DNA of 33,871 nt from Bdellovibrionales bacterium (GTDB taxonomy: Bacteria; Myxococcota; XYA12-FULL-58-9; SYDY01), in the NCBI GenBank assembly GCA_005801425.1, contig SYDY01000046.1, positions 1-33,871 on the forward strand. The letters run 5' to 3'. The notes below the pieces were generated by a model. It was not told the origin of the DNA, ran no database searches, and saw only the letters and a program-made list of their open reading frames with translations. This document shows positions 1 to 32,006 of this stretch, piece after piece (position 1 is the stretch's first letter; each line of letters opens with the position of its first letter). The position numbers and the translations under genes were made by a program.

Positions 1-299
1 TGCAATGTCTTCAATGCTGATCCCGCATGGCGACGCTCAACCGGATTAGAAACAACAACTTCTAATCCTTGCGGTCCTCCATTTACATAAACGCTAAAAC
101 GTGCGGTATTTGAATCATTCCAAGCCCCATACTTCACAGCATTTTCCATCAATTCACCAGCCACCATCGCAATGCCTTCAATGCTATCGTACTGCTTAAA
201 AGCTACGCCAAGACAATTAAGAATCGATGACCTTAAAAGTTCGACATGCCGCCACTCATTAAATGCAGGTACTTCTAAGTTAAATATGGCCGGGAGCAT
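1..299 (-). CDS. Anti-sigma-factor-type histidine-kinase-like ATPase, 3' end beyond window
   Basis: About 99 residues are visible and the gene runs off the left edge. The segment MVAGELMENAVKYG matches the N-box (E-x-x-x-N-A) of GHKL/HATPase_c proteins such as RsbW and related small ATPases, which bind ATP and act as Ser/Thr kinases or anti-sigma factors in partner switching. The ATG at 299 is chosen because a strong Shine-Dalgarno (AGGAGG, on the minus strand) lies about nine bases upstream. The start overlaps the end of the upstream STAS gene by 20 bases, which implies translational coupling. The STAS partner and the SpoIIE-type phosphatase next door support the role. The target regulator is not visible. 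It resembles the small ATPase at 10602-11099 in the N-box region. Confidence 0.75.
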   Translation of the reverse strand, partial: MLPAIFNLEVPAFNEWRHVELLRSSILNCLGVAFKQYDSIEGIAMVAGELMENAVKYGAWNDSNTARFSVYVNGGPQGLEVVVSNPVERRHAGSALKTL

Positions 300-681
300 G
301 TGTTGGTTCCTCCTGTGCAATTCCAATTATTTCAAGAGCGCTATCGTCGCCAGCAAGCACATTCAACGCTTCAAAACTCGCGCGTTGCCAATGCAATGAA
401 CTGTTATAAATCAATTGCAAATGGATACTTCGAGAACGTGCCAATCGTACAAGTTGAACGATCGCGGTGATCGTCGATGAATTGAAATGTTCGATATGCT
501 CAAAATGAAGCACGAGATGCCGTGCTTGATCCACACAAACGCTCAAAACGGATTCAAAATACGGCAAAAGAATGGCGCCAGGATTTCTTGCATTGCTTTT
601 ACCATACAAATCTAAACGCATAAGTCCATCGACAGAGGCATCGGAAGTAATTTTGAGGTCGCCGTCTTCAATTGTCAGCAT
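280..681 (-). CDS. STAS-domain protein (anti-anti-sigma-factor-like)
   Basis: This 133-residue protein has the alternating strand/helix pattern of a STAS domain. The segment LHFEHIEHFNSSTITAIVQL sits where anti-anti-sigma factors carry the phosphorylatable Ser in a D/N-S-S/T context, here N-S-S-T at about residues 67-70. In the family, the unphosphorylated form binds the cognate ATPase/anti-sigma factor, and a PP2C phosphatase resets it. Start at 681 is supported by GGAAGAG just upstream on the minus strand. It overlaps the next gene (ATPase) by 20 bases and is divergent from the phosphatase gene at 847, so a complete kinase/STAS/phosphatase module lies here. Family assignment is from motif and context; which sigma factor or output it controls is unknown. 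Confidence 0.75.
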   Translation of the reverse strand: MLTIEDGDLKITSDASVDGLMRLDLYGKSNARNPGAILLPYFESVLSVCVDQARHLVLHFEHIEHFNSSTITAIVQLVRLARSRSIHLQLIYNSSLHWQRASFEALNVLAGDDSALEIIGIAQEEPTHAPGHI

Positions 682-846: not shown

Positions 847-2181
847 ATGACAACATCTTCCGAAATATCCGCACCTTCACTCGGCGAAGGTCATGTTGAA
901 CCGCTCAAAGGCCTCGATATTTTTATGGGCGGATTTTGTGTTATCAGTTTTTTAACGTCAATTGTTGCTTGGAATTTGGGTTATACCAGTACGGCGTCAC
1001 CCATCAGTATTGCACTATTTCTCATCACCAATCTTTTAATCAGTCAAATTTCGTTTCGATCACACGCACCTTACAAAGTTGAAATAGGCCGAGCCATTGC
1101 AGGCGCAATCATCGCACCTGGAACGTTTCTTCTTGTTGATGGCTGGATGACAGGATGGTGGCCTGGGTTTCTAATCATGTGTCTCGGTGGATGCATTATT
1201 CTGGGCCTTCTTACCCAGAAACCTTTTTTCGGAGCACTTCTTGTTTTTTATTACAGTGTCTTATTTTTTCTCACTGCATACTTCGGGAACAACAGTACAA
1301 GCACATACCAATTGGCCATGAACATCGCTGTGATTGCCATGGTGGGCCTTACATTTTCACAAACTATGTCGTTGCTAGGACAATCGCTTCACAAAGAATA
1401 CCTACAGCGTATTGAACTTAAAAAGACGAAAGATGCCCTGTTTGCTGAAATGGCCGTTGCACAAGAAATTCAAACACTTCTTCTTCCACGTTCCCCCACA
1501 CTGCCATACGCTTTGGTTACAGGAAAAATGGTTCCTGCAACAGAAGTCGGTGGTGATTATTACGACGTCATTAAAACCCCATCTGGACGTCATTTTATCG
1601 CCATCGGTGATGTATCAGGACACGGCGTCACATCTGGCCTTACCATGATGATGGCACGTGCAAGCCTTGTAGGTGCGCTAGAATCGCTCCCCAATGCCAA
1701 TCTGGCAACAATTTATCAAATCGTAAATCAATGTCTCATGGATAATTTAGAACGCATGGCACTCGACTTGTACATGACCTTTGCTTTGATTGAATATGAA
1801 CCTGGAGGTATCTTTCGATCAGTAGGAAAACATCTTCCGTTTTTTATTTACCGGCGAAATGAAAATCGCATTGATGAAATTGAATTGCGGGGTACATGGC
1901 TCGGTATTATCGAAAAATTACCCCAAGAAAAACTTCCAGAGATAGAATTTTCTCTCCGCGAAGGAGATCGCCTGTTTCTCTATACCGATGGGAGTGTTGA
2001 GCATTTCAATAACAACAACAGCGAAATGTTTGGTAGTCACCGACTTCACGATCTGATCTTGAATGGGAAATCAGATAGCGCAGCAACACTCATCGAAAAT
2101 ATTTTAACATCCTTGCGCGATCATAGCCCCGTTTTTGAAGATGACGTAACTTTTCTTGTAGTGGATATGGGTACGGCGTAG
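847..2181 (+). CDS. Membrane-anchored SpoIIE/RsbU-type PP2C Ser/Thr phosphatase
   Basis: The 444-residue protein has roughly six hydrophobic segments between residues 24 and 180, then a short charged linker (YLQRIELKKTKDALFAEM) and a C-terminal PP2C domain of the SpoIIE/RsbU class from about residue 205. Metal-binding motifs are visible: EVGGDYYD, IGDVSGHG, LFLYTDG and the terminal DDVTFLVV. The family dephosphorylates STAS-domain anti-anti-sigma factors, and the membrane part probably senses or localises the signal. It is divergent from the STAS/ATPase pair, which are its likely partners. No clear Shine-Dalgarno is seen before the ATG. It ends six bases before the converging reductase gene, leaving no room for a terminator. 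Confidence 0.9.
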   Translation: MTTSSEISAPSLGEGHVEPLKGLDIFMGGFCVISFLTSIVAWNLGYTSTASPISIALFLITNLLISQISFRSHAPYKVEIGRAIAGAIIAPGTFLLVDGWMTGWWPGFLIMCLGGCIILGLLTQKPFFGALLVFYYSVLFFLTAYFGNNSTSTYQLAMNIAVIAMVGLTFSQTMSLLGQSLHKEYLQRIELKKTKDALFAEMAVAQEIQTLLLPRSPTLPYALVTGKMVPATEVGGDYYDVIKTPSGRHFIAIGDVSGHGVTSGLTMMMARASLVGALESLPNANLATIYQIVNQCLMDNLERMALDLYMTFALIEYEPGGIFRSVGKHLPFFIYRRNENRIDEIELRGTWLGIIEKLPQEKLPEIEFSLREGDRLFLYTDGSVEHFNNNNSEMFGSHRLHDLILNGKSDSAATLIENILTSLRDHSPVFEDDVTFLVVDMGTA

Positions 2182-2187
2182 ACGCAA

Positions 2188-2919
2188 TTATCCCATCACC
2201 ACCCCACCCCCAGCATGAAACACATTGCCCGTGCTGTAGGTGGCTTGTGTAGCCACCCAATAAATCATCTCTGCAACTTCATGGGCACTTGCTATCCGTC
2301 CCATAGGGACACGTTTCAGAAGCATATTTTTTTGTTCATCCGTAAGATCTCTCACCAAATCAGTATCGATGACACCAGGTGCCACTGCATTGACACGTAT
2401 GCCACGCTTAATGCCCTCAAGGGCCAGTACTTTCACAAGACCTATCAGTCCGTGTTTGGAAGCAACGTACGCCGATGCCCCCGCATGCCCCATAAACGAC
2501 GAAGCCGATGCCACATGCACAATGCTACCACCACGATCCCCCATGCATCGCAGCGCAGCCCGCGACAGATAAAATGGCCCATTTAAATTCGTGCCCATTA
2601 CAGCATCCCAATCCGCATCTGTGGTGCGCGATACCAATGCACTTACTTGAATACCTGCATTACCAATCACAACATCAAGCGATTGATACTTTTCGTGTGC
2701 TTCATCAGCCAATGCCTCAACCTGCACTGGATCACGAATATCAGACTGAACACACAACACGCTTCCATTTTTGGATTCAATCTCTCTTTTTAAATCCTCG
2801 GCGAGATCACGGTTTTTGAGATAACTTGCCACCACATGGTAGCCGTTTTCTGCAAACAGAATTGCCGTCGCCTTACCAATGCCACGCGTTCCGCCGGTGA
2901 CTAAAACTGTTTTATCCAT
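2188..2919 (-). CDS. SDR-family oxidoreductase, FabG-like (3-oxoacyl-ACP/CoA reductase)
   Basis: This 243-residue classical short-chain dehydrogenase has the TGGTRGIG cofactor loop at residues 8-15, NAG at 87-89, and the S138/Y151/K155 catalytic set, which coincides with the numbering of E. coli FabG. It should reduce or oxidise a keto/hydroxy group with NAD(P)H. The open frame extends upstream into the preceding gene, but the ATG at 2919 gives the normal family N-terminus and lies four bases after the enoyl-CoA hydratase-like gene's stop. It is the last gene of the eight-gene biosynthetic operon, so a tailoring reductase acting on the carrier- or CoA-bound product is more likely than housekeeping fatty-acid synthesis. 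The exact substrate cannot be read. Confidence 0.85.
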   Translation of the reverse strand: MDKTVLVTGGTRGIGKATAILFAENGYHVVASYLKNRDLAEDLKREIESKNGSVLCVQSDIRDPVQVEALADEAHEKYQSLDVVIGNAGIQVSALVSRTTDADWDAVMGTNLNGPFYLSRAALRCMGDRGGSIVHVASASSFMGHAGASAYVASKHGLIGLVKVLALEGIKRGIRVNAVAPGVIDTDLVRDLTDEQKNMLLKRVPMGRIASAHEVAEMIYWVATQATYSTGNVFHAGGGVVMG

Positions 2920-2923
2920 TCCA

Positions 2924-3679
2924 TTAGCCCGCGTGTTTCGGCCGATTAAGAAGTTCACGAAAAACAGCCAGCTCACGATGCCAACTTGCCGATGCGATAG
3001 GATCGCTATGATCATGCAAAAGACTTTTCATGGCAGCCACACCTTTTCTCGGCATCTCAAAAAATTTACGGCAGATCCCATCGATCTCCTCGTCAATATT
3101 GGCATTGGATGCCAATACATGTGCCAAGCCACATGCATAAGCATCCTGCGCATTCATGGTACGCAATCCCAAAAGCAATGCTTTCGCACGCGATGATCCC
3201 ACAGCCTCAACCATGCGAGCCACACTTCCCGCAGTGGTTGTCCATCCATGATTGACCTCAGGAAAGCCAAAGACTGTGTTGCTTTGACACACGATAAAAT
3301 CGCAGTGCAATGCCAACTCAAAACCACCACCGATACACGCACCCTGCACTTTGGCAATCACGGGCACAGGAAGTGCCCCCAGTGCCCTAAATGCGATGGT
3401 GGCATCTCGCATAAATAGTTCAACTTCGATTGGAGAGCATCCAGATAATAATTTCAAATCGCCACCGGAACAAAACGATGACCCTTCTCCTGCAATAATC
3501 ACAGCACGGGTAGCACCCGATCGCGCGCGCATGGTCAATGAAGGCAATATCCCGTGCATCGCATCAACAACTTCTCGATTGATCGCATTGTGACATTCAG
3601 AACGACGAAACGTTAGAATATCAACAAAAAAATGGTCGATCTGCGTCGCAGTACATGTCATGACATCATGGCTTCCCAT
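2924..3679 (-). CDS. Enoyl-CoA hydratase/isomerase (crotonase) family protein
   Basis: The 251-residue protein has the crotonase core: the oxyanion-hole segment CSGGDL at 70-75, ACIGGGFELAL at 114-124 and FGFPEVNHGW around E141. E141 aligns with the first catalytic Glu (E144) of rat crotonase, but the second (E164) is replaced by Ala167. A simple syn-hydratase is therefore doubtful, and isomerase, decarboxylase or another crotonase chemistry is possible. The start at 3679 is chosen because its ATG overlaps the TAA stop of the aldehyde dehydrogenase gene (TAATG). The longer open frame upstream would run inside that gene. The FabG-like gene follows after four bases. Family is certain; reaction is not. 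Confidence 0.82.
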   Translation of the reverse strand: MGSHDVMTCTATQIDHFFVDILTFRRSECHNAINREVVDAMHGILPSLTMRARSGATRAVIIAGEGSSFCSGGDLKLLSGCSPIEVELFMRDATIAFRALGALPVPVIAKVQGACIGGGFELALHCDFIVCQSNTVFGFPEVNHGWTTTAGSVARMVEAVGSSRAKALLLGLRTMNAQDAYACGLAHVLASNANIDEEIDGICRKFFEMPRKGVAAMKSLLHDHSDPIASASWHRELAVFRELLNRPKHAG

Positions 3680-5109
3680 TATAAAATCTCCAACCCCGGA
3701 TGATCCGTATCGCCCCACAAAGACACCAAACTTCGTCTTGCCAATTCACGCTGCGTACATTCAAAAATCAAAACCTGCTCGCGGCTCGTTTTTTTCCAGA
3801 AGGCATGACTTTCGCCAAATGGACCACCGCTTCGACCAGGACCACCCCACGGCGATGCAAATTCAGGGATCATTGAATGTTCATTGTTCACAAGGAAAAG
3901 ACCCGTACGTTGCACAGACGCACTCAGGCGCTCGATCAAAGCGCCATCATCGGACCACATCGAAAATCGTAAGCCAAATGGATCTCTTGAAATTCTGTGT
4001 TCAATCTGTGTTTGAGCGATCTCATCGTTAGAACTCAAACGAAAAACGGGGATCAAGGGATAACCTATTTCATCGTGAAGCAGAAGGCACTTGTCGAGAT
4101 GGACACTATCGGCCCTCAAAGAAACCACCGTTGGTGCAACATAAACACCGGCAGGATCTCTCTCAAGCGACGCATTCATACGATAACCACCGATAAGGAT
4201 CTCACCTCCGCGCGCAACAGCATCATGAAGACTTTTTTCAAAGTCATCCAAACGCAATACCGGTGTCAAAATGCCGAGACTTCTATCATTTTCAATGGTT
4301 CGAAATGCATTGCGGGCCGCATGGACCAATCCAGAAACAAAATCATCATAAACAGCATCATGCACCAAGAATTTTTTAGGAATAGGACACGGCTGTGTCG
4401 AAAAATCGAATGCACGGGAAGCACTCGCAATGGCGTTTGTCACATCAGCATCTTTCCAAACAAGGCACCAATCGCTTCCTTCAAGCTCTAAAATCGTTTT
4501 TTTCTGATGGATTGCCGCTTGGCTTAAAACAGAAGCACCCGTTTTGGCATTTCCAAAAAAAACAATGGTATTGACGGCACTTTTATCCCAAAGTGCATCA
4601 AGAAATTCTCTCGATTTTCCGGTAAAAACCTGTACAAGCCCATCGGGTAAGCCATACTCCCGCAACGCGGGCCTTATTGCAGAATCAATCACAAGATGAA
4701 CACCCGCATCATGCTCAGGCGCACGAATAAGAACACCATTGCCCGCCAACAAAATAGGGAAAAGTGTTCCAGCATTGATCGTGGGTGAATTGCCCGGCGT
4801 AACAAGTGCCACGATCCCATCGGCCCGCCGGATTGATATCTCAAAGGTCGTCGTTAAACGCTTCACATCGATCATATCGCGTGCCGCAATCAGAAGACGC
4901 GCTTCTTCACTTTGCGCAAGAACCCATGGGGCATAGCGTTTTGCCAAAACATCTGACAGTCCATCTTCACGCAAACATCGAAAAATATCGTGCTGCTTTG
5001 CATGCAGAAATTCACCTGCATGGGATAGGATCTGTGCACGATTTTTGATGGGAGTGCGCGCCCAGATCTCCGATGTCGATTTAAGATGTTCCCATGAAAA
5101 ATCAATCAT
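3679..5109 (-). CDS. Aldehyde dehydrogenase superfamily protein
   Basis: This 476-residue protein has the ALDH landmarks in order: VTPGNSP (the Asn of the oxyanion hole), FFGNAKTG (cofactor-binding turn), LELEG with general base E208, and the nucleophile C241 in STQPCPIPKK. The catalytic residues are intact, so oxidation of an aldehyde to acid, or CoA-acylating chemistry, with NAD(P) is expected. The ATG at 5109 overlaps the TGA of the type III PKS gene as ATGA. A longer in-frame extension reaches 5226 but lies inside that gene. It sits in the halogenase/PKS operon and may oxidise or reduce an intermediate there. It was considered as a LuxC-type acyl reductase, but its motifs fit classical ALDH better. 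Confidence 0.85.
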   Translation of the reverse strand: MIDFSWEHLKSTSEIWARTPIKNRAQILSHAGEFLHAKQHDIFRCLREDGLSDVLAKRYAPWVLAQSEEARLLIAARDMIDVKRLTTTFEISIRRADGIVALVTPGNSPTINAGTLFPILLAGNGVLIRAPEHDAGVHLVIDSAIRPALREYGLPDGLVQVFTGKSREFLDALWDKSAVNTIVFFGNAKTGASVLSQAAIHQKKTILELEGSDWCLVWKDADVTNAIASASRAFDFSTQPCPIPKKFLVHDAVYDDFVSGLVHAARNAFRTIENDRSLGILTPVLRLDDFEKSLHDAVARGGEILIGGYRMNASLERDPAGVYVAPTVVSLRADSVHLDKCLLLHDEIGYPLIPVFRLSSNDEIAQTQIEHRISRDPFGLRFSMWSDDGALIERLSASVQRTGLFLVNNEHSMIPEFASPWGGPGRSGGPFGESHAFWKKTSREQVLIFECTQRELARRSLVSLWGDTDHPGLEIL

Positions 5110-6152
5110 GAATGCCATCCATCGAGAATCAACAGTGTAGAAATAATGCCCGGCCCCAAAGCAAAAAGTCCCAGACGATTTTCTTGGATCATCTTGGCAT
5201 CCAACGCCCGTTCTAATACCAAACAAAGTGATGCTGCCCCCACATTGCCAACATCATCAAGAACAGATTTCGACAATTCCAAGCTTTTCGCGTGTTCAGG
5301 GCATCGACCCGACAATGTATCCATCAGAGCTCTTCCACCCGGATGAAACAAAACAGCACCCTCTTGCATCCATTTTTTCAAAGAGGAAGGAACTTCATCC
5401 CCAACATGATGCCGAATGCCATTGCCTACAGAAATAAACGGCGACCCTGAATCATCAACGGCCAAATCGTTATCAACGAGTGTATTGGGCCACATATGCG
5501 ATTTAAGTGAAGCATTTTTCCAAGATCGAGATTCAGATTTTTCATTTCTTCGCAACACCATCGAAGATGCAGCATCCGAAGACAGAGCATGGGCAACAAT
5601 TTGGGAGACATCCGGTGGCTTCATGAACCACGCACATCCCCCATAGCTTCCCATGGCATCCACACACACCACAGTCACTTCATCATATTTGTCATCGGCC
5701 ATCAGAAGATGCGCCAAATACAAAGCATGCGTAGGACCCGCACACCCTAACCCCGCAAGATCAAAACAGACAGCATCGGGATCAAACCCCATACGGATAG
5801 CAACACGCCTGCTCAGCGATGGAAAACCTTGATACGTGCTGCTGACAACGATCAATGCGCCGCTGTTTTCAGGTCTCCATCCTCCATTTTTCATTTTTAA
5901 AAGACAGCGTTCTGTCAGGTCGAAAACGGCTTGATTGACATGCTTCTCCCATCCCAACTCATTCAATGCATCTGGGTTCCATCGTTCCCAATAGCGTTGC
6001 TTAATCCCTGATCGATCGTAAACAAAGGTTGTTTGTCGCCTCGCTTCCGTCCAGAATTCATCATCATTAAAACGCGTACGAAGATGATCTGCGAGATCTT
6101 CTTGGTAGATCCGATGCTGACCCAATTCCGTAGACAGGTGGGTGATATACAT
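5106..6152 (-). CDS. Type III polyketide synthase (chalcone-synthase-like ketosynthase)
   Basis: The 348-residue protein has thiolase-fold motifs of type III PKSs: FDLAGLGCAGPTHAL with nucleophile C137, LFHPGGRAL with H270, and DDVGNVGAAS with N303. The His-to-Asn spacing of 33 equals that of chalcone synthase (303/336), whereas E. coli FabH has 30. Such enzymes take a CoA- or carrier-bound starter, extend it with malonyl-CoA, and cyclise the chain. The ATG at 6152 follows the halogenase stop by one base, and the end overlaps the aldehyde dehydrogenase start. The operon suggests a pyrrolyl or other aminoacyl-carrier-derived starter. A divergent KAS III that transfers an acyl group cannot be excluded. 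Confidence 0.77.
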   Translation of the reverse strand: MYITHLSTELGQHRIYQEDLADHLRTRFNDDEFWTEARRQTTFVYDRSGIKQRYWERWNPDALNELGWEKHVNQAVFDLTERCLLKMKNGGWRPENSGALIVVSSTYQGFPSLSRRVAIRMGFDPDAVCFDLAGLGCAGPTHALYLAHLLMADDKYDEVTVVCVDAMGSYGGCAWFMKPPDVSQIVAHALSSDAASSMVLRRNEKSESRSWKNASLKSHMWPNTLVDNDLAVDDSGSPFISVGNGIRHHVGDEVPSSLKKWMQEGAVLFHPGGRALMDTLSGRCPEHAKSLELSKSVLDDVGNVGAASLCLVLERALDAKMIQENRLGLFALGPGIISTLLILDGWHS

Positions 6153-6153
6153 T

Positions 6154-7665
6154 TTACATCCTAAATGTACGACGTGGTGCAATCACCGTATGTTCTGAAC
6201 TAAAATCGGGAAGATCATCGTTGATGTCCTCAGCACGTATCCACCGCATCATGGAAAAATTTTCACGACCAAATTCACGGTAAAGTTTTTCTTCAAAATC
6301 GGTAATGGCCTGATCGAGTTCTGGATTGTTATCCGTGAGAACAAGCGAAGCGCGAATAGCATTGTCTTGAATCGCCAAGTAGGCCGCATCAACTCCTTGA
6401 TAATCTTTGTATCGATTAAAAATTTCCCATGCGATATCGCGCGCTTTACCTTCTTCAATATGCAAAGGTCCATCGGTGGCCAAACTTGTTCGCATTTTCT
6501 TAAGGACATCACTGGGTTCACAAAAACAATCACCCGCCAAAAGATCGATCATACCCTGGCGTGTTTTTCCTTTGGTCATGAAGCTAAAAAATGCAGGAAA
6601 CCGCCAAAAGTAGCGGATAAGATCTGCCGCTGCACTCTGACCGAGTTCGCTAAACTGTGTGAATTCGTAAAACGGTTTTTTGAAATCACCCGTACGAATA
6701 CCCTCCACAATGGCTTTTGCAGCCGCTCTTCCTTCCGCAAATGAAAATGCAACACCGAAAGAAAAAATAGGATCAAAAAATTTATGGGCATCACCCACAC
6801 AAATCCATCCGTCACCAACAAAGGGATCGCAACTGTAGGAATAATTGCGGATCACACGCACCGATTCGACCTGTTTGGCATTTCGAAGACGATTCTCCAA
6901 ATCAGGATTGATATGGTGAAGTCCCCACGCCAAAACTTCTTCAGGTGTTTTACCATGGGCTTTGTAGGTATCGGTGGGAATGACAACGCCAATGCTTGTT
7001 ACAGTCGACGATAAAGGAATAAACCACGACCAATGCAACGGCTGCCCGTAAAAGATGACCGTATCTTTTCCTAGCTGACCTTCTTCACGAAATGCGTTTT
7101 CGTATTGCGAAAATATAGCCATTTGACGAGAAAATTTATTGATAATACGTGGTCCCGCGACACCGAGATGCGCCAAAAATGTTCCTTGACCACTGCAATC
7201 AACAACGCATTTCGCATAGATCTCTTCTTCTTCACCATTTTCATGCGTGCATTTGACGCCTACTACGCGCGCGCCATCGCGTAATACATCCGTGACACGT
7301 GCTTGAATGTGCTCTGCCCCTGCAGATTTTGATTCGCGTTGCAGTATTTGGTCAAATTCAGCACGACGTACTTGCCATGTTGGACGGGGAACAGGAATAT
7401 AAAATTGATTTTGACCATTATGGCCAATCACTTTAACACCCATTTTTCCCGGAAAATCGATGCGGTCAAATTCTTCTTCAAGATGCAATTCGCGAACAAT
7501 ATCACCCGCCGCCCCCGTCAAAGATTCACCAATATGGTAACGAGGTAATTTCTGATAATCGATGACCAATGCATGAAGACCCATTTTTTCGAGCGTATAT
7601 GCGCAATAGCTTCCTGCGGGTCCTGAACCGATGACAACTACATCAGGATTTTTCCGTGTCTTCAT
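6154..7665 (-). CDS. Flavin-dependent halogenase (PltA/Bmp2-like)
   Basis: This 503-residue flavoprotein begins with the FAD-binding loop VVVIGSGPAG at residues 9-18. It has FPGKMGVKV with K74 where halogenases keep the catalytic Lys (K79 in PrnA), and the diagnostic W-x-W-x-I-P motif as W212-S-W-F-I-P217. A second flavin motif, GDAHKFFDPIFSFGV, lies in the middle of the protein. The family uses FADH2, O2 and chloride or bromide to halogenate aromatic rings. The start is set by a strong Shine-Dalgarno, GGAGGAG (minus strand, 7671-7677). Longer in-frame starts would overlap the carrier-protein gene. The carrier, adenylation and dehydrogenase genes upstream suggest that a carrier-bound pyrrole is halogenated. 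No flavin reductase is encoded in the window. Confidence 0.85.
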   Translation of the reverse strand: MKTRKNPDVVVIGSGPAGSYCAYTLEKMGLHALVIDYQKLPRYHIGESLTGAAGDIVRELHLEEEFDRIDFPGKMGVKVIGHNGQNQFYIPVPRPTWQVRRAEFDQILQRESKSAGAEHIQARVTDVLRDGARVVGVKCTHENGEEEEIYAKCVVDCSGQGTFLAHLGVAGPRIINKFSRQMAIFSQYENAFREEGQLGKDTVIFYGQPLHWSWFIPLSSTVTSIGVVIPTDTYKAHGKTPEEVLAWGLHHINPDLENRLRNAKQVESVRVIRNYSYSCDPFVGDGWICVGDAHKFFDPIFSFGVAFSFAEGRAAAKAIVEGIRTGDFKKPFYEFTQFSELGQSAAADLIRYFWRFPAFFSFMTKGKTRQGMIDLLAGDCFCEPSDVLKKMRTSLATDGPLHIEEGKARDIAWEIFNRYKDYQGVDAAYLAIQDNAIRASLVLTDNNPELDQAITDFEEKLYREFGRENFSMMRWIRAEDINDDLPDFSSEHTVIAPRRTFRM

Positions 7666-7681
7666 TGTCTCTCCTCCATCG

Positions 7682-7939
7682 CTATGCATTCGCATTTAAC
7701 GACATGATAAATGACGCCATCTTTTCGATGGATGAAAAATTTTCAGGACGCACTTCCTGGTCAGGAATTTTCACATGAAATGTTGATTCGAAAAAAACGA
7801 TCACCTTCTGAATGGACATCGAATCGATAACACCAAGATCCAAAAGAGGCGTATCCTCTCGGAGATCTCCCGCATTCCCGTGTAAAAGCTCTTGTGCAAC
7901 ATAAGTATAAATAGCCGCTTTAACTTTCGATTTTTCCAT
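7682..7939 (-). CDS. Acyl/peptidyl carrier protein (stand-alone, PltL-like)
   Basis: The 85-residue protein has the carrier-protein pattern LLDLGVIDSMSIQKVI, in which Ser40 would receive the 4'-phosphopantetheine arm. The protein is acidic around the Ser and has the usual helical layout and length. Its ATG at 7939 lies inside the 3' end of the adenylation gene (20-base overlap), which fits coupled production of the pair. In pyoluteorin, prodiginine and bromopyrrole pathways the equivalent protein holds prolyl and then pyrrolyl while dehydrogenase and halogenase act on it. No phosphopantetheinyl transferase is present in the window, so it must be primed by an enzyme from elsewhere. Confidence 0.88.
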   Translation of the reverse strand: MEKSKVKAAIYTYVAQELLHGNAGDLREDTPLLDLGVIDSMSIQKVIVFFESTFHVKIPDQEVRPENFSSIEKMASFIMSLNANA

Positions 7940-9365
7940 TGCGTATCATCTCCGAACTTTGAAGCGATTTTCTATCTATTTTTCCATTGGTATTCGTAGG
8001 AAGTTTCTCAAAAACAACGATGCGATCGATGGTCATGGATGGAGGGAGTTTTTCAGAACAATGCCTTTTAATCGACAACAATGACGGGGCCGGATGGTTT
8101 TTTTTAACAACGACACAAGCAACCAATTCATTGAGAACATCACCATAAGCCACCACAGCGACATCCTGAATACTTGGATAAGTAGCAATACATGCTTGAA
8201 TTTCTAACGGAGAAATACGATGGCCTCGGATCTTCACAAGATCGTCGCTACGGCCTACATAGTTCAGTTGATTGTTTGCATCGAGATAACCGTGGTCACC
8301 GGTCGCATAGCACCTACCCTTCAGTGCTTTATCACCCCAATACCCATGCATAACAGACGGGCCTTCGACACAAATTTCACCATCATCGGAAAGCCATACA
8401 CGATCACCGCTTGCAGCAGTTCCAATAGGAATACTGGTTGCATGATCGTCAATCTCTTTGATTTCGTAGGCCGTGCATACATTGGTTTCTGTTGGCCCGT
8501 ACCAATTATGCATGCGAATATGCCGGAAAGATTTACGAAGAACACGAAGGTCAGATAGCGGAAAAACTTCCCCTGCAAAGATCATATTTCGTAGCGATGG
8601 GAGATCACGTCCTATCAAACCGCCTTGCTCCATCATCATACGGATCACTGTAGGCACAGAGTACCACACAGAAATGCTTTGATTCTTAATAAAATCGACA
8701 AGCCCCTTGGGGTGAATATCCAATGCACGAGGAACAATGGAAACCGACGCCCCCATCGTCAAGGCTGCGTAAATATCGAAAACAGACAAATCAAAGTGAA
8801 ATCCCGCATGATTTGATAAAATATCATCTTTGTTGACGCCTATATTATCGGTCGCCCATGCAACAAAGGCATAAGCAGCCCGATGGGAAATACACACGCC
8901 TTTGGGTTCTCCCGTGCTTCCAGAGGTATACAGAATATATGCAAGCCGCTCTGGATCATCGACGGGCAAACATAAAGTGCTTGCCATCTGGGAAACCAAT
9001 TCATTTTCGGAGACAATAACCATATCACATCGATCATCGCTCCAAGACGCATCCGATGTCACAATACATTTTACGCCACAATGACTTGTAACTTTTCGGA
9101 CCCTCTCCGGTGGGGAACGTGGGTCGAGAGGTACATACGCTGCACCGAGGGCCATGACAGCATGCATGGTGCACAATTGATTGATCGATTTTGGACCAAA
9201 TAATGCGACACGATCATTTAAGCCAACGCCGCGCGCATGAAGTGCTGTGGCAATCCTGCGTGTTCGATCAAACATGGTTTCATAGGAGAAAGCCGCACCA
9301 TCACAATAAGCTGCCGTTGCCGATGGTGTTTCTTTCGCGAATTTTTTCATCCCATGATGAAGCAT
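7920..9365 (-). CDS. Stand-alone adenylation enzyme (amino-acid/acyl-AMP ligase, PltF/PigI-like)
   Basis: The 481-residue ANL-superfamily protein has all core motifs: YILYTSGSTGEPKG (ATP loop, near residue 150), NWYGPTETN (near 300), YATGDHGYLDANNQLNYVGR, DLVKIRGHRISPLEIQ, and the terminal NTNGKIDRKSL with catalytic K462. The stretch NHAGFHFDLSVFDIY is like that of prolyl-AMP ligases. It should activate an amino acid and load it onto the carrier protein encoded next. Proline is inferred from the adjacent dehydrogenase and halogenase, not from a binding-pocket analysis. The start at 9365 has a G-rich run upstream, lies nine bases after the dehydrogenase gene's stop, and the gene's end overlaps the carrier gene. 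Confidence 0.87.
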   Translation of the reverse strand: MLHHGMKKFAKETPSATAAYCDGAAFSYETMFDRTRRIATALHARGVGLNDRVALFGPKSINQLCTMHAVMALGAAYVPLDPRSPPERVRKVTSHCGVKCIVTSDASWSDDRCDMVIVSENELVSQMASTLCLPVDDPERLAYILYTSGSTGEPKGVCISHRAAYAFVAWATDNIGVNKDDILSNHAGFHFDLSVFDIYAALTMGASVSIVPRALDIHPKGLVDFIKNQSISVWYSVPTVIRMMMEQGGLIGRDLPSLRNMIFAGEVFPLSDLRVLRKSFRHIRMHNWYGPTETNVCTAYEIKEIDDHATSIPIGTAASGDRVWLSDDGEICVEGPSVMHGYWGDKALKGRCYATGDHGYLDANNQLNYVGRSDDLVKIRGHRISPLEIQACIATYPSIQDVAVVAYGDVLNELVACVVVKKNHPAPSLLSIKRHCSEKLPPSMTIDRIVVFEKLPTNTNGKIDRKSLQSSEMIRNGKIES

Positions 9366-9374
9366 CGCGCCCCC

Positions 9375-10517
9375 CTACAATCCCAAATGCGCTGCAATTG
9401 CGTTGCGTTGAATATCCGATGTTCCTGAAAAAATCGTACTTGGAATGCTATCCCGAAGTGCGCATTCAATACCCACGTCACGCATGCACCCCATGCCACC
9501 ATGAATGGCTATAGCATCCATCGCGGTTGAAACCGCCATTTCGCTGACATGGAGTTTTGCCGACGAAACAAGCATTTCTGAACGATTTCTATCCTCATGG
9601 GTGATCGACCATGCCGCGCGATACAACAAACAACGTGCTGATTCTATGCGTGTTTGCATATTGGCAATACGATGAGAAATGGCTTGATGTTTTCCGATAG
9701 CCACATCGCCTTGGATGCGTTCTTTAGCGTACACAATGCTGCGTTCAAGCATCCGTTGTGCAAGTCCCACGTATGCACCAAACAAACCTGTGCGCTCCCA
9801 TTGCATCGAATGACGAAAGATCTGAGCACCCGAACCTTCATGCCCTAACAATGAGGATCCTGGAATACGGCACGCATCAAAGTACACAGGACCTATCGGT
9901 GCGCAATCCAATCCCATGCCATCAAATGGTTTTCCGAGCGTGACACCTTTCATGTTTGTTGGAATAACAAAGGCAGAAACGCCCAATAGGCCAGCATTTT
10001 TATTGGTACTCGCGTAGACCAAAAGAATATCGGACGCAGGCCCATTGCTCACATAGGATTTTACGCCTGAGATCACATAATCCGATCCATCGCGGACAGC
10101 CTCTGTATGCAACGCAAATGCATCAGAGCCAGCTTCCGCCTCTGTGATCGCATTGGCACCCACGGCATCACCCGACAACAATCGCGGCAACCATGTTTCA
10201 CGAATTTCGGGCGTACAAAATTTTGCGATGGGCTCTACGCATGCAAATGCGTGGGCAAGTGCAGCAAAAGCCAAACCAAAATTATTAATCCCCAAGCCTA
10301 TGGCTTCGGTCATATGCACAGTTTGAAGTGGTGTTAATCCAAGACCACCATGGGATGCATCAACCGCCACACCCAAAACACCAAATTCGCCCATCGCTCG
10401 CCATACATCGGATGTCCGAGAAACAAGTGGCTTATCGGTCACAACTTTAAGATGAGAAAAAAACGCCAACGTACGTTCATAAAGCTGTTGTTCCTCATCC
10501 GACCAGCTAAAATCCAT
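9375..10517 (-). CDS. Acyl-CoA-dehydrogenase-like flavoprotein, probable aminoacyl-carrier oxidase (PltE/PigA-like)
   Basis: This 380-residue protein has the acyl-CoA dehydrogenase fold signatures TEAEAGSDA, SYVSNGPASD and the terminal IFSGTSDIQR. In medium-chain enzymes the catalytic Glu lies in the last motif (YEGT), but Ser is found here. Instead E241 in QWERTG sits where isovaleryl-CoA dehydrogenase and the prolyl-carrier oxidases keep the base. Together with the adenylation, carrier and halogenase genes, this suggests four-electron oxidation of prolyl-S-carrier to pyrrolyl-2-carboxyl-S-carrier. The start at ATG 10517 gives MDFSWSDEEQ, a normal family N-terminus, with AGGA a short way upstream. 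Upstream in-frame ATGs (10541, 10577) are less likely. It is the first gene of the operon. Confidence 0.85.
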   Translation of the reverse strand: MDFSWSDEEQQLYERTLAFFSHLKVVTDKPLVSRTSDVWRAMGEFGVLGVAVDASHGGLGLTPLQTVHMTEAIGLGINNFGLAFAALAHAFACVEPIAKFCTPEIRETWLPRLLSGDAVGANAITEAEAGSDAFALHTEAVRDGSDYVISGVKSYVSNGPASDILLVYASTNKNAGLLGVSAFVIPTNMKGVTLGKPFDGMGLDCAPIGPVYFDACRIPGSSLLGHEGSGAQIFRHSMQWERTGLFGAYVGLAQRMLERSIVYAKERIQGDVAIGKHQAISHRIANMQTRIESARCLLYRAAWSITHEDRNRSEMLVSSAKLHVSEMAVSTAMDAIAIHGGMGCMRDVGIECALRDSIPSTIFSGTSDIQRNAIAAHLGL

Positions 10518-10601
10518 CACAATGCATCCTGTCAACGTCATCGTACCATGAAGCGATGCATACAGATCATGATGCACATGCTAGAATGGCTCATAGACGC
10601 T
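10518..10601. promoter_or_regulatory. Short divergent intergenic region upstream of the biosynthetic operon
   Basis: Only about 84 bases separate the operon's first gene from the divergent small ATPase gene, so both promoters must lie here or within the 5' ends of the genes. No convincing -35/-10 pair was found on either strand. The assignment rests on gene layout alone. Confidence 0.35.
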
Positions 10602-11099
10602 ATGAACCTACAAAAAAACGTAATTCTCGCATATCGATGGCAGGATATTGAATGCGTACGCCAGGATGTGGTTGCGCTTGTCGCAACAACACACAATCCT
10701 TGTTTTGAACCAGAACGCGTTGGCATGGTTGCGGCAGAGCTTCTCGAAAATGCAATTGCCCATGGGGACAGCACATGTACGAAAGTTCATTTTTCTTTGA
10801 AACAGAAGGATGACTGTCTTCATATTCGTGTGCGAAATCACGTTAAGCATGCTGACGATGCAAACAAAATCAACCGATTGCTTGCATGGATTGGATCTTG
10901 TGAAAATAAACGCGTTGCATACCAAACGCTGCTATTGCAAGCCTTCAACTCCTATCAAGCCTCTGGCGGGGTTGGCCTTGCTCGCATTGTTTATGAGGGA
11001 CATTGTGAACTCACATGCAATACAGAAGAAGATCGTGAAATCGAAATGCATGCGATACTTAAAGCACTTCCGGTTGATCTTAATCCTATAGCACGATGA
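10602..11099 (+). CDS. Small GHKL/HATPase-type ATP-binding protein (anti-sigma-kinase-like)
   Basis: About 165 residues. The N-box VAAELLENAIAHGD and a later glycine-rich SGGVGLARIVYEG segment mark a GHKL ATPase fold like RsbW-type anti-sigma kinases. The N-box is close to that of the protein encoded at 1-299 (MVAGELMENAVKYG). The open frame continues upstream to 10350 but would lie antisense over the dehydrogenase gene. The ATG at 10602 gives an N-terminus like the paralogue; 10578 is an alternative, and neither has a good Shine-Dalgarno. It is divergent from the biosynthetic operon, which suggests a regulatory link to the operon or to the phosphatase/STAS module at the operon's far end. Confidence 0.68.
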   Translation: MNLQKNVILAYRWQDIECVRQDVVALVATTHNPCFEPERVGMVAAELLENAIAHGDSTCTKVHFSLKQKDDCLHIRVRNHVKHADDANKINRLLAWIGSCENKRVAYQTLLLQAFNSYQASGGVGLARIVYEGHCELTCNTEEDREIEMHAILKALPVDLNPIAR

Positions 11100-11350: not shown

Positions 11351-12748
11351 TTACGATCTCGCCCAGTAATGCATCCACGGACCGTATTGTTTTTCCATAG
11401 CGCCTACAAAATCATCGGCTTGTCGATTGCCAGGTGATGAGATCGCTGCATTAAAAGCTTGAAGCACCGGATGACATGCACAGCTACGTCGCAATTCAAC
11501 CGCAACACACCACGTCTCTTGGGCAAGACTTCCATCAGGAAGCCTCACGCATGCGGGTGGCATTTTTTTACGCGGCATGATCTGGGTTGATGACCTACAC
11601 ATACCTTTTGCAGCACCCTGTAAAATTCTACCTCCAAAAGAGCCTTCAGTATCATTGGGATATCGCAAACTCGGTCCATCAGGGATCAGGTCGCGTGTTG
11701 CTTGGCGGGCATATTGCATCAAAAGAAAACGTGCATGTTCCAATGCAATAATAGGTAAAAGATCCAACATGGGCTCAACGGTTCCCAAACAATTTTTCTC
11801 CCAGGTGTTCAATCCCGTCATGAGAGTTTCAATCACACATAGAGCCAAAGTTTCGGTTCCAATATGACACAGCAGCGCAGAAATTGCGCCCCGCGCTTCA
11901 TCGTCTTCCCCAACCATGTTACGCAACACATCACCTGCAGAGCACCGCAGTATTGCCGGCAAGCAATACTTGCCTCCATGAAACGTTGCCTCTTTCCAGT
12001 ATTCAGATCCCAAAATGCGGGCACTGAGTGTTTCATCTTTACTTCCATGAAACAGCATCTTTGACAGAGCCCAGCCAGATGCTTGCCAAATAAATAATCC
12101 CATCAAACCAGCCAGATTTTCCTTGGTTTCTGCATCCAAATGCGAGGCAAAAATTGTCGGGAATATTTGTTGGCGTGCAATATCAACAGCACATTGGCGA
12201 AGCACACAGTCAAGAACCTCCTCACATCTCACGCATTTTATTGGGGGATCCATAGCAAAAGCACGCACTGGAACATCAATGGTTGCGTGGGAAACAACTT
12301 TCTCATCCCGTCCAGCGAGAGTCGTATTCCAATTTGCCGCTTCACCTGGGTTCCATGCCACAAAATCGCGAGCGCTACGCTGTGAGAGCAGTGTCAACGA
12401 TAAAGCCACAGTCGCATCAAATTTTGGAGGCTTCAGTATTCCGTACAAATCACGGGCCATTGCAAGAAATCCCGACCGGCTTGTCAGCGGCCCTACGATC
12501 ACTTCCAATATGCCTTGATCACTTGGTGCCTGATTATTGGCTACAACAAGCCGCATCGAAGAAATACGTGGACTGCACTCGCTGGTGAAATTTGAAGCTG
12601 CTATCTCATTTGCGTCCAATTCACGCTTGTCTCCTTCGGGAATAGAAATGACTATCCCTGTATGTTCAGCCTCATAGCCAACTCCTGCGGGAGAAGCAGG
12701 CCTCTTAGCATGACGCGATGAGTCTGAAATGGAGAGCGTGCTGGCCAT
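11351..12748 (-). CDS. Hypothetical protein, 465 residues
   Basis: No family is recognised. The first 40 residues are low-complexity and polar (SISDSSRHAKRP, then an acidic stretch), with no signal peptide and no convincing membrane span. The body is helical in character and Cys-rich for a cytoplasmic protein, with CVRCEEVLDCVLRQC near residue 173 (a C-x-x-C among five cysteines) that could bind a metal or form disulfides. A basic segment, MPRKKMPP, lies near residue 390. The gene stands alone between the repeat at 11177-11293 and the YceI gene, on the same strand as the downstream operon genes but 64 bases away. Its length and consistent codon use support a real gene. Confidence 0.6.
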   Translation of the reverse strand: MASTLSISDSSRHAKRPASPAGVGYEAEHTGIVISIPEGDKRELDANEIAASNFTSECSPRISSMRLVVANNQAPSDQGILEVIVGPLTSRSGFLAMARDLYGILKPPKFDATVALSLTLLSQRSARDFVAWNPGEAANWNTTLAGRDEKVVSHATIDVPVRAFAMDPPIKCVRCEEVLDCVLRQCAVDIARQQIFPTIFASHLDAETKENLAGLMGLFIWQASGWALSKMLFHGSKDETLSARILGSEYWKEATFHGGKYCLPAILRCSAGDVLRNMVGEDDEARGAISALLCHIGTETLALCVIETLMTGLNTWEKNCLGTVEPMLDLLPIIALEHARFLLMQYARQATRDLIPDGPSLRYPNDTEGSFGGRILQGAAKGMCRSSTQIMPRKKMPPACVRLPDGSLAQETWCVAVELRRSCACHPVLQAFNAAISSPGNRQADDFVGAMEKQYGPWMHYWARS

Positions 12749-13440: not shown

Positions 13441-14172
13441 TTAAAAAGTATCGCTGCAGAGCAACCAGCCGTCGTCTACAGCCTCTTGTAGCAAATCCAA
13501 AACGGTTTTTGTTGAAATATTCGCGCATCGCGCTGCATCGCCCGGTGTCATGACATCGTGAACCATTTTAAGAACAAACAGCATGCGCGGGGAGGCAACC
13601 ATGGTGCATGCATGCAGCGAAATGGGGTGCCGAAACACAAACACTGTTTCATCAGAGGGTTGCGGTTCACCGAGCGTATTTACACCATCATTGTGTCGCC
13701 ACGCGCGCACAAACGTTCCCACGGGATATGAAAACATCAATGTTTGCAGAGTTGGATTAAAAACAAACCCTTGATCAGGCTTGGGCTGCCTGATTTCTTC
13801 GCGTGTAGCGTAAACTTCCCACTCCGCCCATTCAAGCTGCGTAAGTTCACAGATAAAATTCGAAATCCCAAAACGGTTTTGTGTATACATCGCGTCAATG
13901 AATGCGCGGTAAGCGGACGCACAACGATTGAGTTCATAATGTTCAGCTGGATAACGCCTATAAAATTCATTCACCAAGCTGGTGAATGTATCGGAGGGAA
14001 AAAGAACTGAACTCACATCGTAATTTTTCTCGACAGCCTCACGAATATGACCCTTCACTGCCTCAATATAAAAATAAAGACGTTCTTTAGGAACATTCCA
14101 CGCAAGGGCAAGTGCATCCGCGTCAAGATCACCACGAAGCATATGGTGCAACAATGTCGCCTGGTCTTTCAT
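13441..14172 (-). CDS. DUF2063 family protein, MNIO partner (HvfC/BufC-like)
   Basis: The 243-residue protein has a DUF2063-like N-terminal half: RLYFYIEAVKGHIREAVEKNY, then LFPSDTFTSLVNEFYRRYPAE, then LTQLEWAEWEVY. Members pair with DUF692 enzymes and are thought to present or recognise the precursor leader. The C-terminal third ends in a winged-helix-like segment (MTPGDAARCANISTKTVLDLLQEAVDDGWLL). The ATG at 14172 overlaps the TGA of the DUF692 gene (ATGA) and has GGAGAG just upstream. A TTG in frame at 14187 is less likely. It lies between the MNIO gene and the YceI gene. Annotated DUF2063 'DNA-binding' labels should be treated with care, because family context points to a modification partner. 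Confidence 0.82.
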   Translation of the reverse strand: MKDQATLLHHMLRGDLDADALALAWNVPKERLYFYIEAVKGHIREAVEKNYDVSSVLFPSDTFTSLVNEFYRRYPAEHYELNRCASAYRAFIDAMYTQNRFGISNFICELTQLEWAEWEVYATREEIRQPKPDQGFVFNPTLQTLMFSYPVGTFVRAWRHNDGVNTLGEPQPSDETVFVFRHPISLHACTMVASPRMLFVLKMVHDVMTPGDAARCANISTKTVLDLLQEAVDDGWLLCSDTF

Positions 14173-15014
14173 GCCGCTCTCCGCCAAGACAACAACGATG
14201 CATCACCTATTTCACGAACAATATGCAATTCATTGCGCAGTTCATCCAGTGGAGGAATTTGATTGTCACGTTCGATCATGGTCCACGTGGGTCCTACTTT
14301 TTCTATGACATATGCATAAAGGTCGAGTACCGATGATGGCGTTGACGCGCCATGGGTATCGATCAGAAAATTGCCTGAATCATCGTGTCCCGCAAGATGG
14401 ATTTGTCGAACACGTTGCAATGGCAACGCATCAATGAATGCCTTGGCAGCGTAGCCGTGATTGCGGCTGTTCACAAAGACGTTGTTTACATCAAGAAGCA
14501 ATCCGCAATCTGCGCGTGAAAGAACTTCACCTATAAATTCTGCCTCTGTCATCTCGGCGCCTGGCAAAACAATGTAATAGCTTGGGTTCTCTAACAAAAA
14601 CGGGGTCCTCATACGTGCTTGCACATATGTTATACGATCGACCACATGGTGCACTGCTTCCATGGTAAAGGGCACAGGAAGTAAATCGTGATACTCTACG
14701 CCAAAAGCCGAAGATGATGAAAGATGGTCCGAAAACCAGGGCGGAGAGATAATTGACGCCAGACGCGATAAACTATCAAGATAATCTTCCCGGAGAGGAT
14801 CAACGCCTCCGAGATTTAACGAAACGCCATGCATCACCAAAGGATAATACTCTCGAAGCGCATGCAATGTGTGCAGCGCTTTTCCACCAAATTCCATAAA
14901 ATTTTCTGGAACGATTTCAAGAAAATCGACATCATGCAATTTGGGCACGTAGTCGTCAAAATGGGGTCGCCTAAGACCCAAACCATAGCGTGCTGTTTCC
15001 ATGGACGACCCCAT
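14169..15014 (-). CDS. MNIO (DUF692) multinuclear non-heme iron oxidative enzyme, BufB/HvfB-like
   Basis: About 281 residues forming a TIM-barrel DUF692 protein. Expected metal-ligand segments are all present: EIVPENFM, VMHGVSLNLGG, FSDHLS, LLENPSYY, LLLDVNNVFVN, QIHLAGHDDSGNFLIDTHG and TMIERDNQIPPLDEL. MNIO enzymes use two or three irons to oxidise Cys side chains of a ribosomal peptide (for example to thiooxazole or oxazolone/thioamide groups) that then bind copper or another metal. The start is ambiguous: ATG at 15014 is used here, with TTG at 15023 and ATG at 15002 as alternatives, none with a strong Shine-Dalgarno. It lies 39 bases after the Cys-rich precursor gene and overlaps the DUF2063 gene. 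Confidence 0.9.
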   Translation of the reverse strand: MGSSMETARYGLGLRRPHFDDYVPKLHDVDFLEIVPENFMEFGGKALHTLHALREYYPLVMHGVSLNLGGVDPLREDYLDSLSRLASIISPPWFSDHLSSSSAFGVEYHDLLPVPFTMEAVHHVVDRITYVQARMRTPFLLENPSYYIVLPGAEMTEAEFIGEVLSRADCGLLLDVNNVFVNSRNHGYAAKAFIDALPLQRVRQIHLAGHDDSGNFLIDTHGASTPSSVLDLYAYVIEKVGPTWTMIERDNQIPPLDELRNELHIVREIGDASLLSWRRAA

Positions 15015-15053
15015 TGTTGACAATATTAAACCGGTTTATTGTTGTACGAGCCC

Positions 15054-15365
15054 TTAGTTTGGCTTGGGTGCGTCGGTTGTCGACTTGTTCTCTTCTCCGC
15101 ATTTCTTATCTGCACCACATTTTTTGTCAGCGCAGCATTTTTTATCGGCACCACATTTTTTATCAGCACAACACTTTTTGTCGGCACCACATTTTTTATC
15201 AGCACAACATTTTTTATCCGCACCACCACAGCTATTGGCCCCACAGCCTTTGGCTGCGCCTTTATCGGCCTGAGTCGTCGTAGCACAGCCTGTCATCGCA
15301 AGGGCAAGACCACCCAGCGACAAGGAGAGAGCCAGAGCACTTCGTTGAAGTTTATTGGTTGTCAT
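15054..15365 (-). CDS. Cys-rich RiPP precursor with ADKKC repeats (bufferin/HvfA-like metallophore)
   Basis: The 103-residue precursor begins with a Sec-type signal peptide (basic LQR, then a hydrophobic stretch to about residue 25). It ends in AMTGC27, a possible lipobox. The mature part carries C41 and C46, then seven hexapeptides ADKKC(C/G) at residues 49-90, alternating CC and CG endings, for 12 Cys after Cys27. HvfA-type precursors carry repeated E-G-K-C-G units whose Cys is oxidised by the MNIO enzyme. The K-C-G motif here is similar, while the K-C-C units differ. The start has GAGGA before the ATG. Secretion with modified cysteines suggests copper or other metal binding in the periplasm or on a membrane anchor. 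Confidence 0.85.
   Translation of the reverse strand: MTTNKLQRSALALSLSLGGLALAMTGCATTTQADKGAAKGCGANSCGGADKKCCADKKCGADKKCCADKKCGADKKCCADKKCGADKKCGEENKSTTDAPKPN
15096..15221 (-). repeat. Tandem 18-base coding repeats (36-base alternating unit) in the precursor gene
   Basis: Seven 18-base units encode ADKKCC or ADKKCG (residues 49-90 of the precursor). Units alternate, giving a 36-base super-period, with a final extra CG unit. Such near-identical repeats are prone to copy-number change by slippage. It is coding sequence, not a CRISPR array. Confidence 0.92.
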
Positions 15366-31967: not shown

Positions 31968-32006
31968 TCTAGGATGCCGCAAGCAGCACCCCTACGGGAC
32001 ATCCTC

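Follow-up and report, generated by a model that had tools for sequence, protein, structure and literature searches.

A candidate operon for a halopyrrole-primed polyketide, flanked by genes of partner-switch type, in a Bdellovibrionales bacterium

The window analysed here (the whole 33,871-nucleotide stretch) contains an operon in which four genes resembling those of bromopyrrole synthesis are followed by genes for a type-III-PKS-like condensing enzyme, an aldehyde dehydrogenase (ALDH), a crotonase (ECH) and a FabG-like reductase (SDR). Our preferred reading, with a probability of roughly 0.55, is that this one operon makes a halopyrrole-primed short polyketide, with the hydrolytic release of Bmp-type pathways replaced by decarboxylative condensation. 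If this is true, a type-III-PKS-like enzyme receives a carrier-bound halopyrrole, and no description of such a coupling was found in the open-access literature. The host is a bacterium outside the known halopyrrole producers, and it would combine an over-halogenating pyrrole enzyme with a gatekeeper-less condensing enzyme in a lineage whose other sampled genomes showed neither.

Operon organization

The operon runs on the minus strand from position 10517 to 2188 and comprises eight ORFs (Table 1), with neighbours either separated by 16 bp or less or overlapping by up to 20 bp (9, -20, 16, 1, -13, -1 and 4 bp in the order ACAD to SDR). This spacing makes a single transcript likely. Coordinates rest on the likeliest ATG start for each gene, and families were assigned by Pfam, NCBIfam and PDB searches. 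The preliminary description reported eight tightly packed genes of these families with intact catalytic residues, and both points hold: all of the ORFs are present, and a motif check confirmed E241 of ACAD, K74, W212 and W214 of Hal, and C137/H270/N303 of the PKS-like enzyme. The ALDH catalytic pair is also intact, but the start chosen here numbers it E211/C244, where the earlier account has E208/C241, 3 positions lower. Further intact sites are N110 and E350 of ALDH, E121/E141 of ECH, N87/S141/Y151/K155 of SDR and S40 of CP. Since every catalytic residue is present, none of the eight genes looks decayed. Three genes bracketing the operon, encoding STAS, PP2C and HATPase proteins, were absent from the earlier account.

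Table 1. Genes of the operon and its regulatory flanks, with positions in the window.
Gene product	Position	Strand	Supporting features
STAS-domain protein, anti-sigma antagonist type	280..681	-	STAS 5.9e-4; slr1659 superfamily 1.1e-6
Membrane SpoIIE/PP2C-type phosphatase	847..2181	+	SpoIIE 7.9e-31; convergent with operon end
FabG-like SDR ketoreductase	2188..2919	-	TIGR01830 3e-65 (below equivalog cut-off); N87/S141/Y151/K155
Crotonase, enoyl-CoA hydratase type (ECH)	2924..3679	-	Pfam ECH_1 1.7e-37; E121/E141
Aldehyde dehydrogenase superfamily enzyme (ALDH)	3679..5118	-	Pfam Aldedh 2.6e-49; N110/E211/C244/E350
Type-III-PKS-like condensing enzyme (PKS)	5106..6152	-	C137/H270/N303; Pfam FAE1_CUT1_RppA, Chal_sti_synt_C; PDB Pks11
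Flavin-dependent halogenase (Hal), putative Bmp2 type	6154..7665	-	K74, W212xW214; pocket F303/F307/A346; PDB 5bva 3e-119
Stand-alone carrier protein (CP), 85 aa	7682..7939	-	PP-binding 9.7e-6; Ser40 site; without thioesterase domain
Putative L-proline adenylation enzyme (A), Bmp4/PltF type	7920..9365	-	PDB 6o6e; code DLFYIAWVCK
Putative prolyl/pyrrolyl-S-carrier dehydrogenase (ACAD), Bmp3/PigA/RedW type	9375..10517	-	Base E241; NCBIfam PigA, RedW; PDB 6cxt, 4irn
HATPase_c anti-sigma-type kinase	10548..11099	+	HATPase_c_2 3.1e-4; divergent from operon; start within 10548-10602

Proline loading, oxidation and halogenation

Judged by their sequence matches, the first four genes are of Bmp type, and they very probably form a halopyrrolyl-carrier. 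In the proposed pathway, A would load L-proline onto the stand-alone carrier, ACAD would oxidise the prolyl-S-carrier to the pyrrolyl-2-carbonyl-S-carrier, and a Bmp2-type Hal would then put several halogens, probably three, on the carrier-bound pyrrole. Identity to the proteins of Pseudoalteromonas bmp loci is 45-48% for Hal, 43% for ACAD, 37-40% for A and 30-37% for CP, which aligns to the carrier part of Bmp1.

The nearest solved relative of A is an L-Pro--[prolyl-carrier] ligase (PDB 6o6e, 3.2e-108). Aligned with PltF and with six Bmp4 enzymes encoded in bmp loci of Pseudoalteromonas, A shows the ten pocket residues DLFYIAWVCK, as against DLFYIAFVCK in Bmp4 of P. peptidolytica (one conservative change) and DLLYLALVCK in PltF; the proline specificity suspected in the preliminary description is thus borne out by the prolyl code of Bmp4/PltF. 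ACAD, previously named as an aminoacyl-carrier oxidase, is nearest to prolyl-carrier dehydrogenases (Bmp3/PigA). It matches the NCBIfam models PigA (1.6e-113) and RedW (1.4e-110), both below the cut-off, and in the PDB it ranks 6cxt first (1.5e-91), which we take to be the Bmp3 structure, followed by the prolyl-carrier dehydrogenases 4irn (1.1e-80) and 5zw0. With the PigA model ACAD scores 380 bits, and none of the six further dehydrogenases in the host genome exceeds 246.

The best PDB relatives of Hal are 5bva (402 bits) and 5bul (393 bits), recognised from their mutations and a review text as Bmp2 and a triple mutant of it; the next scores 160 bits. In a maximum likelihood tree Hal is sister to Bmp2 with 100/100 support, in agreement with the halogenase family named earlier. 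The pocket residues F303/F307/A346 correspond to Y302/F306/A345 in Bmp2 and to S/V/W in PltA and Mpy16. These positions determine how many halogens Bmp2 adds, and an S/V/W swap, as in Mpy16, gives a mono-halogenating enzyme (PMC5577590). By these residues Hal appears to share the over-halogenation-type pocket of Bmp2: the F/F/A set predicts more than two halogens, and Hal would add several, probably three, the halogenation itself being as much a prediction as the count. A pyoluteorin-type assignment is rejected on the S/V/W pocket of PltA and on the tree.

The preliminary description had the first four genes follow both pyoluteorin and bromopyrrole logic; the Bmp1-4 logic stands, whereas the Plt-type assignment falls on the Hal pocket and the Hal tree. 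The window resembles the tetrabromopyrrole/pentabromopseudilin pathway of Pseudoalteromonas in its four activities, best matches, prolyl code and Hal pocket class. It differs in gene order (ACAD-A-CP-Hal as compared with CP/TE-Hal-ACAD-A), in lacking a thioesterase, in a C-terminal extension of Hal, and in carrying PKS, ALDH, ECH and SDR genes where Bmp has Bmp5-10. The pyoluteorin pathway (PltE/PltF/PltL/PltA) has the same logic of a carrier-bound pyrrole that is halogenated and then extended as a polyketide, but its sequence similarity to the window is lower, the S/V/W pocket of PltA is dihalogenating, and extension is by a type I PKS.

When 84,980 genomes were scanned for sequence patterns, 14 loci were returned, every one in Pseudoalteromonas with adjoining bmp genes; the patterns were stretches conserved between the window and Bmp2 halogenases and are narrow, so that absence elsewhere is weak evidence. 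No relative of the window PKS was found in the flanking sequence examined at these 14 loci, and the combination of a Bmp quartet with a type-III-PKS-like gene was found neither in this narrow scan nor in 195 genomes of the window's own phylum. With a halogenase profile, window Hal scores 709 bits and the next best protein in 193 own-phylum genomes 202. Scans of viral contigs, including one with the halogenase alone, yielded no relative.

The condensing enzyme and the fate of the halopyrrole

The labelling of the fifth gene as a type III PKS can be kept only in part. The triad C137/H270/N303 is present, and the enzyme carries the type III motifs GLGC, HPGG, GN and GPG, where FabH has HQAN and GAG. 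Against the label, matches to type III PKS models are weak (Pfam 1.3e-7 and 6.9e-7; best PDB entry Pks11, 1.4e-13). In the tree, type III PKSs together with the window enzyme are split from FabH with 100/100 support, but the window enzyme is basal, its branch is 3.1 changes per site long, and support of 69/51 decides neither for nor against a grouping with FabH. The gatekeeper (Phe215 of CHS), which is Phe in 27/27 references (20 type III PKSs and 7 FabH), is Ser191; its region reads ALSSDAASS in place of ALFGDGAAA, with the GDG loop lost, and the loop ahead of the catalytic His is shortened. From its sequence, we regard the enzyme as a deep, atypical and very divergent type III relative, hence type-III-PKS-like. 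The nearest relatives found are on Rhizobium plasmids (28-30% identity, none above 30%), and the plasmid relatives are ordinary type III PKSs, stand-alone or methyltransferase-linked; no closer relative was found in 195 own-phylum genomes or in 369 Gammaproteobacteria. Two AlphaFold predictions lacked alignment depth (pLDDT 34 and 38). This divergence (at most 30% identity, the long branch, and the loss of the gatekeeper and GDG loop) means that the substrate of the enzyme cannot be predicted. The host genome, rated 100% complete, has no FabH above E 1e-20, and its sole weak FabH match is the window PKS; FabH was present in 18/20 genomes of that search, the host being one of the 20.

The core of the proposed mechanism is what the operon lacks. 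Bmp1 of locus L021 joins a carrier and an alpha/beta hydrolase within one protein, but no releasing thioesterase or hydrolase domain was found in the 85-aa window CP, nor any hydrolase gene in the operon. In the Bmp pathway, which belongs to marine bacteria, the acid is released by the Bmp1 thioesterase and CO2 is then lost (PMC5577590). With the thioesterase absent, the carboxyl carbon would stay a thioester, as a condensing enzyme requires. If the preferred reading is true, it suggests how the Bmp dead end of release and CO2 loss becomes chain extension simply through thioesterase loss. C137 would then take the halopyrrolyl thioester and condense it with malonyl-CoA, both the transfer from the carrier and the number of condensations being postulated. 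Type III PKSs that accept acyl-ACP starters exist, namely Gcs and HidC (PMC8086630). Taken with the missing thioesterase and the shared operon, this gives somewhat better than even odds that the window enzyme accepts a halopyrrolyl starter. Cylindrocyclophane-type clusters (CylB carrier, CylC halogenase, CylI type III PKS) likewise pass a halogenated chain from a free-standing carrier to a type III PKS, but the chain is alkyl, the halogenase is a dimetal-carboxylate enzyme and a type I PKS intervenes (PMC8086630).

In a presumed order, the FabG-like reductase would act on the beta-keto product, the crotonase would remove water, and ALDH would fix the final oxidation state as an aldehyde or acid terminus. 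The complete SDR and crotonase sites could support reduction and dehydration of a beta-keto thioester, and alterochromides provide a condensation-reduction-dehydration set acting on an aryl starter (AltD/AltH/AltG), although the enzyme types are different (PMC5577590). Several points count against the preferred reading. Besides the divergence of the PKS-like enzyme, no genome carrying all eight genes turned up that could serve as a comparison. The substrate of a crotonase is normally a CoA ester, and the reading has to suppose that the chain changes carrier; and ALDH, whose NCBIfam and PDB relatives are generic only, has a general base (Glu211), which suits the oxidation of an aldehyde better than the reduction of a thioester. 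A ferulate-type hydratase/lyase reading of the crotonase-ALDH pair was set aside, as both hydratase Glu residues are present. A DpgA/DpgD pathway was rejected as well: matches are far below cut-off (35.6 of 425 and 91 of 400) and DpgB and DpgC genes are absent.

The best-surviving rival, which we consider unlikely, divides the operon into two halves: a thioesterase encoded elsewhere, or hydrolysis without an enzyme, would free the halopyrrole, while PKS, ALDH, ECH and SDR would make a separate acyl or aromatic part, joined later or never. The Bmp pathway indeed couples halves made separately (PMC5577590), crotonase, SDR and ALDH are enzymes of general CoA-ester metabolism, and a DpgA/DpgD pair, to which PKS and crotonase show their weak matches, makes an aromatic acyl-CoA from malonyl-CoA alone. 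Those scores, however, lie far under the cut-offs, the operon has no thioesterase, P450 or coupling enzyme, and the PKS gene directly follows the Hal gene, as a related pair also adjoins in the G189 genome described below.

It is improbable that the PKS-like enzyme moves the halopyrrolyl group to another molecule, whether as an acyl transferase or by using a nucleophile other than malonyl. Certain thiolase-fold enzymes, of the CerJ type, are acyl transferases, and the rebuilt gatekeeper region and shortened loop would suit such a role, but all three residues for decarboxylative condensation are kept, H270 and N303 included, and a reductase and dehydratase come next, as after condensation. That halogenation by Hal follows the PKS step, or has a different aromatic compound as its substrate, the product then not being a halopyrrole-primed chain, is very improbable: sequence gives neither substrate nor timing, and the C-terminal extension sets Hal apart from Bmp2, but the carrier-dependent Bmp2 is by far its nearest relative (100/100) and the genes making its usual substrate adjoin.

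Putative flanking partner switch and genome context

STAS, HATPase and PP2C genes, the gene set of a putative partner-switching module, lie around the window operon and have orthologues in an operon of G189, a distant genome of the same phylum. A phosphatase search of 195 own-phylum genomes gave one orthologue, that of G189 (46% over 436 aa, 2e-135, 404 bits), the next best match being 31% and 177 bits. The G189 STAS orthologue is 47% identical (5e-33), and the HATPase orthologue (32%, 3e-18) adjoins counterparts of Hal and PKS. The G189 operon (L074:9147-14415; C2:190146-195414; L074 GC 0.73) has six genes, overlapping by 1 or 4 bp, in the order halogenase-like, PKS-like, STAS, HATPase, second STAS and SpoIIE phosphatase. 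Its halogenase-like protein aligns with window Hal over 485 aa at 30% identity (4e-75), and the alignment takes in the C-terminal extension of about 95 residues that Bmp2 lacks; the match of its PKS-like protein to the window PKS is faint but colinear (blastp 3e-5; hhalign E 4e-5, probability 70).

Unlike the window enzymes, both G189 proteins have lost their catalytic residues: GxGxxG, Lys, WxW and GDA in the halogenase-like protein and, from alignments, Cys, His and Asn in the PKS-like protein. GC3 is 0.91-0.96 across all six frames, which therefore look like maintained genes. No A, CP or prolyl dehydrogenase gene was found near the G189 operon (the best prolyl-dehydrogenase match in the genome, 253 bits, is at background level), and a second STAS gene is added. 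Upstream lies a divergent gene for a PilZ-containing sigma-54 activator.

Either the linkage of the Hal-PKS pair to the switch predates both genomes, or the unit was transferred. We suggest, tentatively and with considerable doubt, that Hal and the PKS-like enzyme have long been paired and connected to the STAS/HATPase/PP2C switch, and that the G189 pair lost catalysis, kept its translational coupling to the switch and became its non-catalytic sensing or binding subunits. Together with the catalytically dead pair, this linkage makes the idea that biosynthetic enzymes can become regulators testable. The flanking switch may control the window operon; the halopyrrole polyketide may itself be the signal, and the C-terminal extension common to both halogenase-like proteins may be a contact surface. 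A halogenase-like gene near STAS/HATPase/PP2C genes in another genome (G172, L109) was dismissed as chance, as unrelated genes intervene and the shared features are missing. A search for the phosphatase pair in 398 Pseudomonadota genomes, run with no positive control, gave no match.

GC3 is 0.35-0.43 in the operon and flanking regulatory frame, whereas the housekeeping genes on the right-hand side are at about 0.5. In seven genomes of this order, neither an orthologue-level phosphatase nor a close PKS relative is present. Horizontal gain is likely. An assembly chimaera is unlikely, with MiaB, RimO, NadD and a fused E1 dehydrogenase encoded on the same contig; on its left side the window reaches the end of the contig.

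Several other genes were noted. Beside the operon regulator, a 465-aa protein (11351-12748, minus strand) has no match in Pfam, NCBIfam or PADLOC. The genes at 13441-15365 (minus strand) resemble a bufferin-type RiPP cluster for metal binding, with a precursor that is unusual in being repeated: DUF2063 and DUF692 (MbnB/TglH/ChrH) genes stand next to one for a Cys-rich, lipoprotein-like peptide of 103 aa that contains KKC repeats, and a YceI gene is also present. The E1 alpha and beta subunits of a 2-oxoacid dehydrogenase appear fused in one 727-aa frame (29799-31982, minus strand). Elsewhere in the host genome, a 2833-aa PKS-like frame with a ketosynthase-like start and a phosphopantetheinyl-transferase match (G000:C118; L050:9969-18467, minus strand) is perhaps a PUFA-synthase type protein, and a halogenase-like flavoprotein gene beside two ketosynthase-like genes and an SDR gene (G000:C43; L048:296-5704) resembles an aryl polyene cluster.
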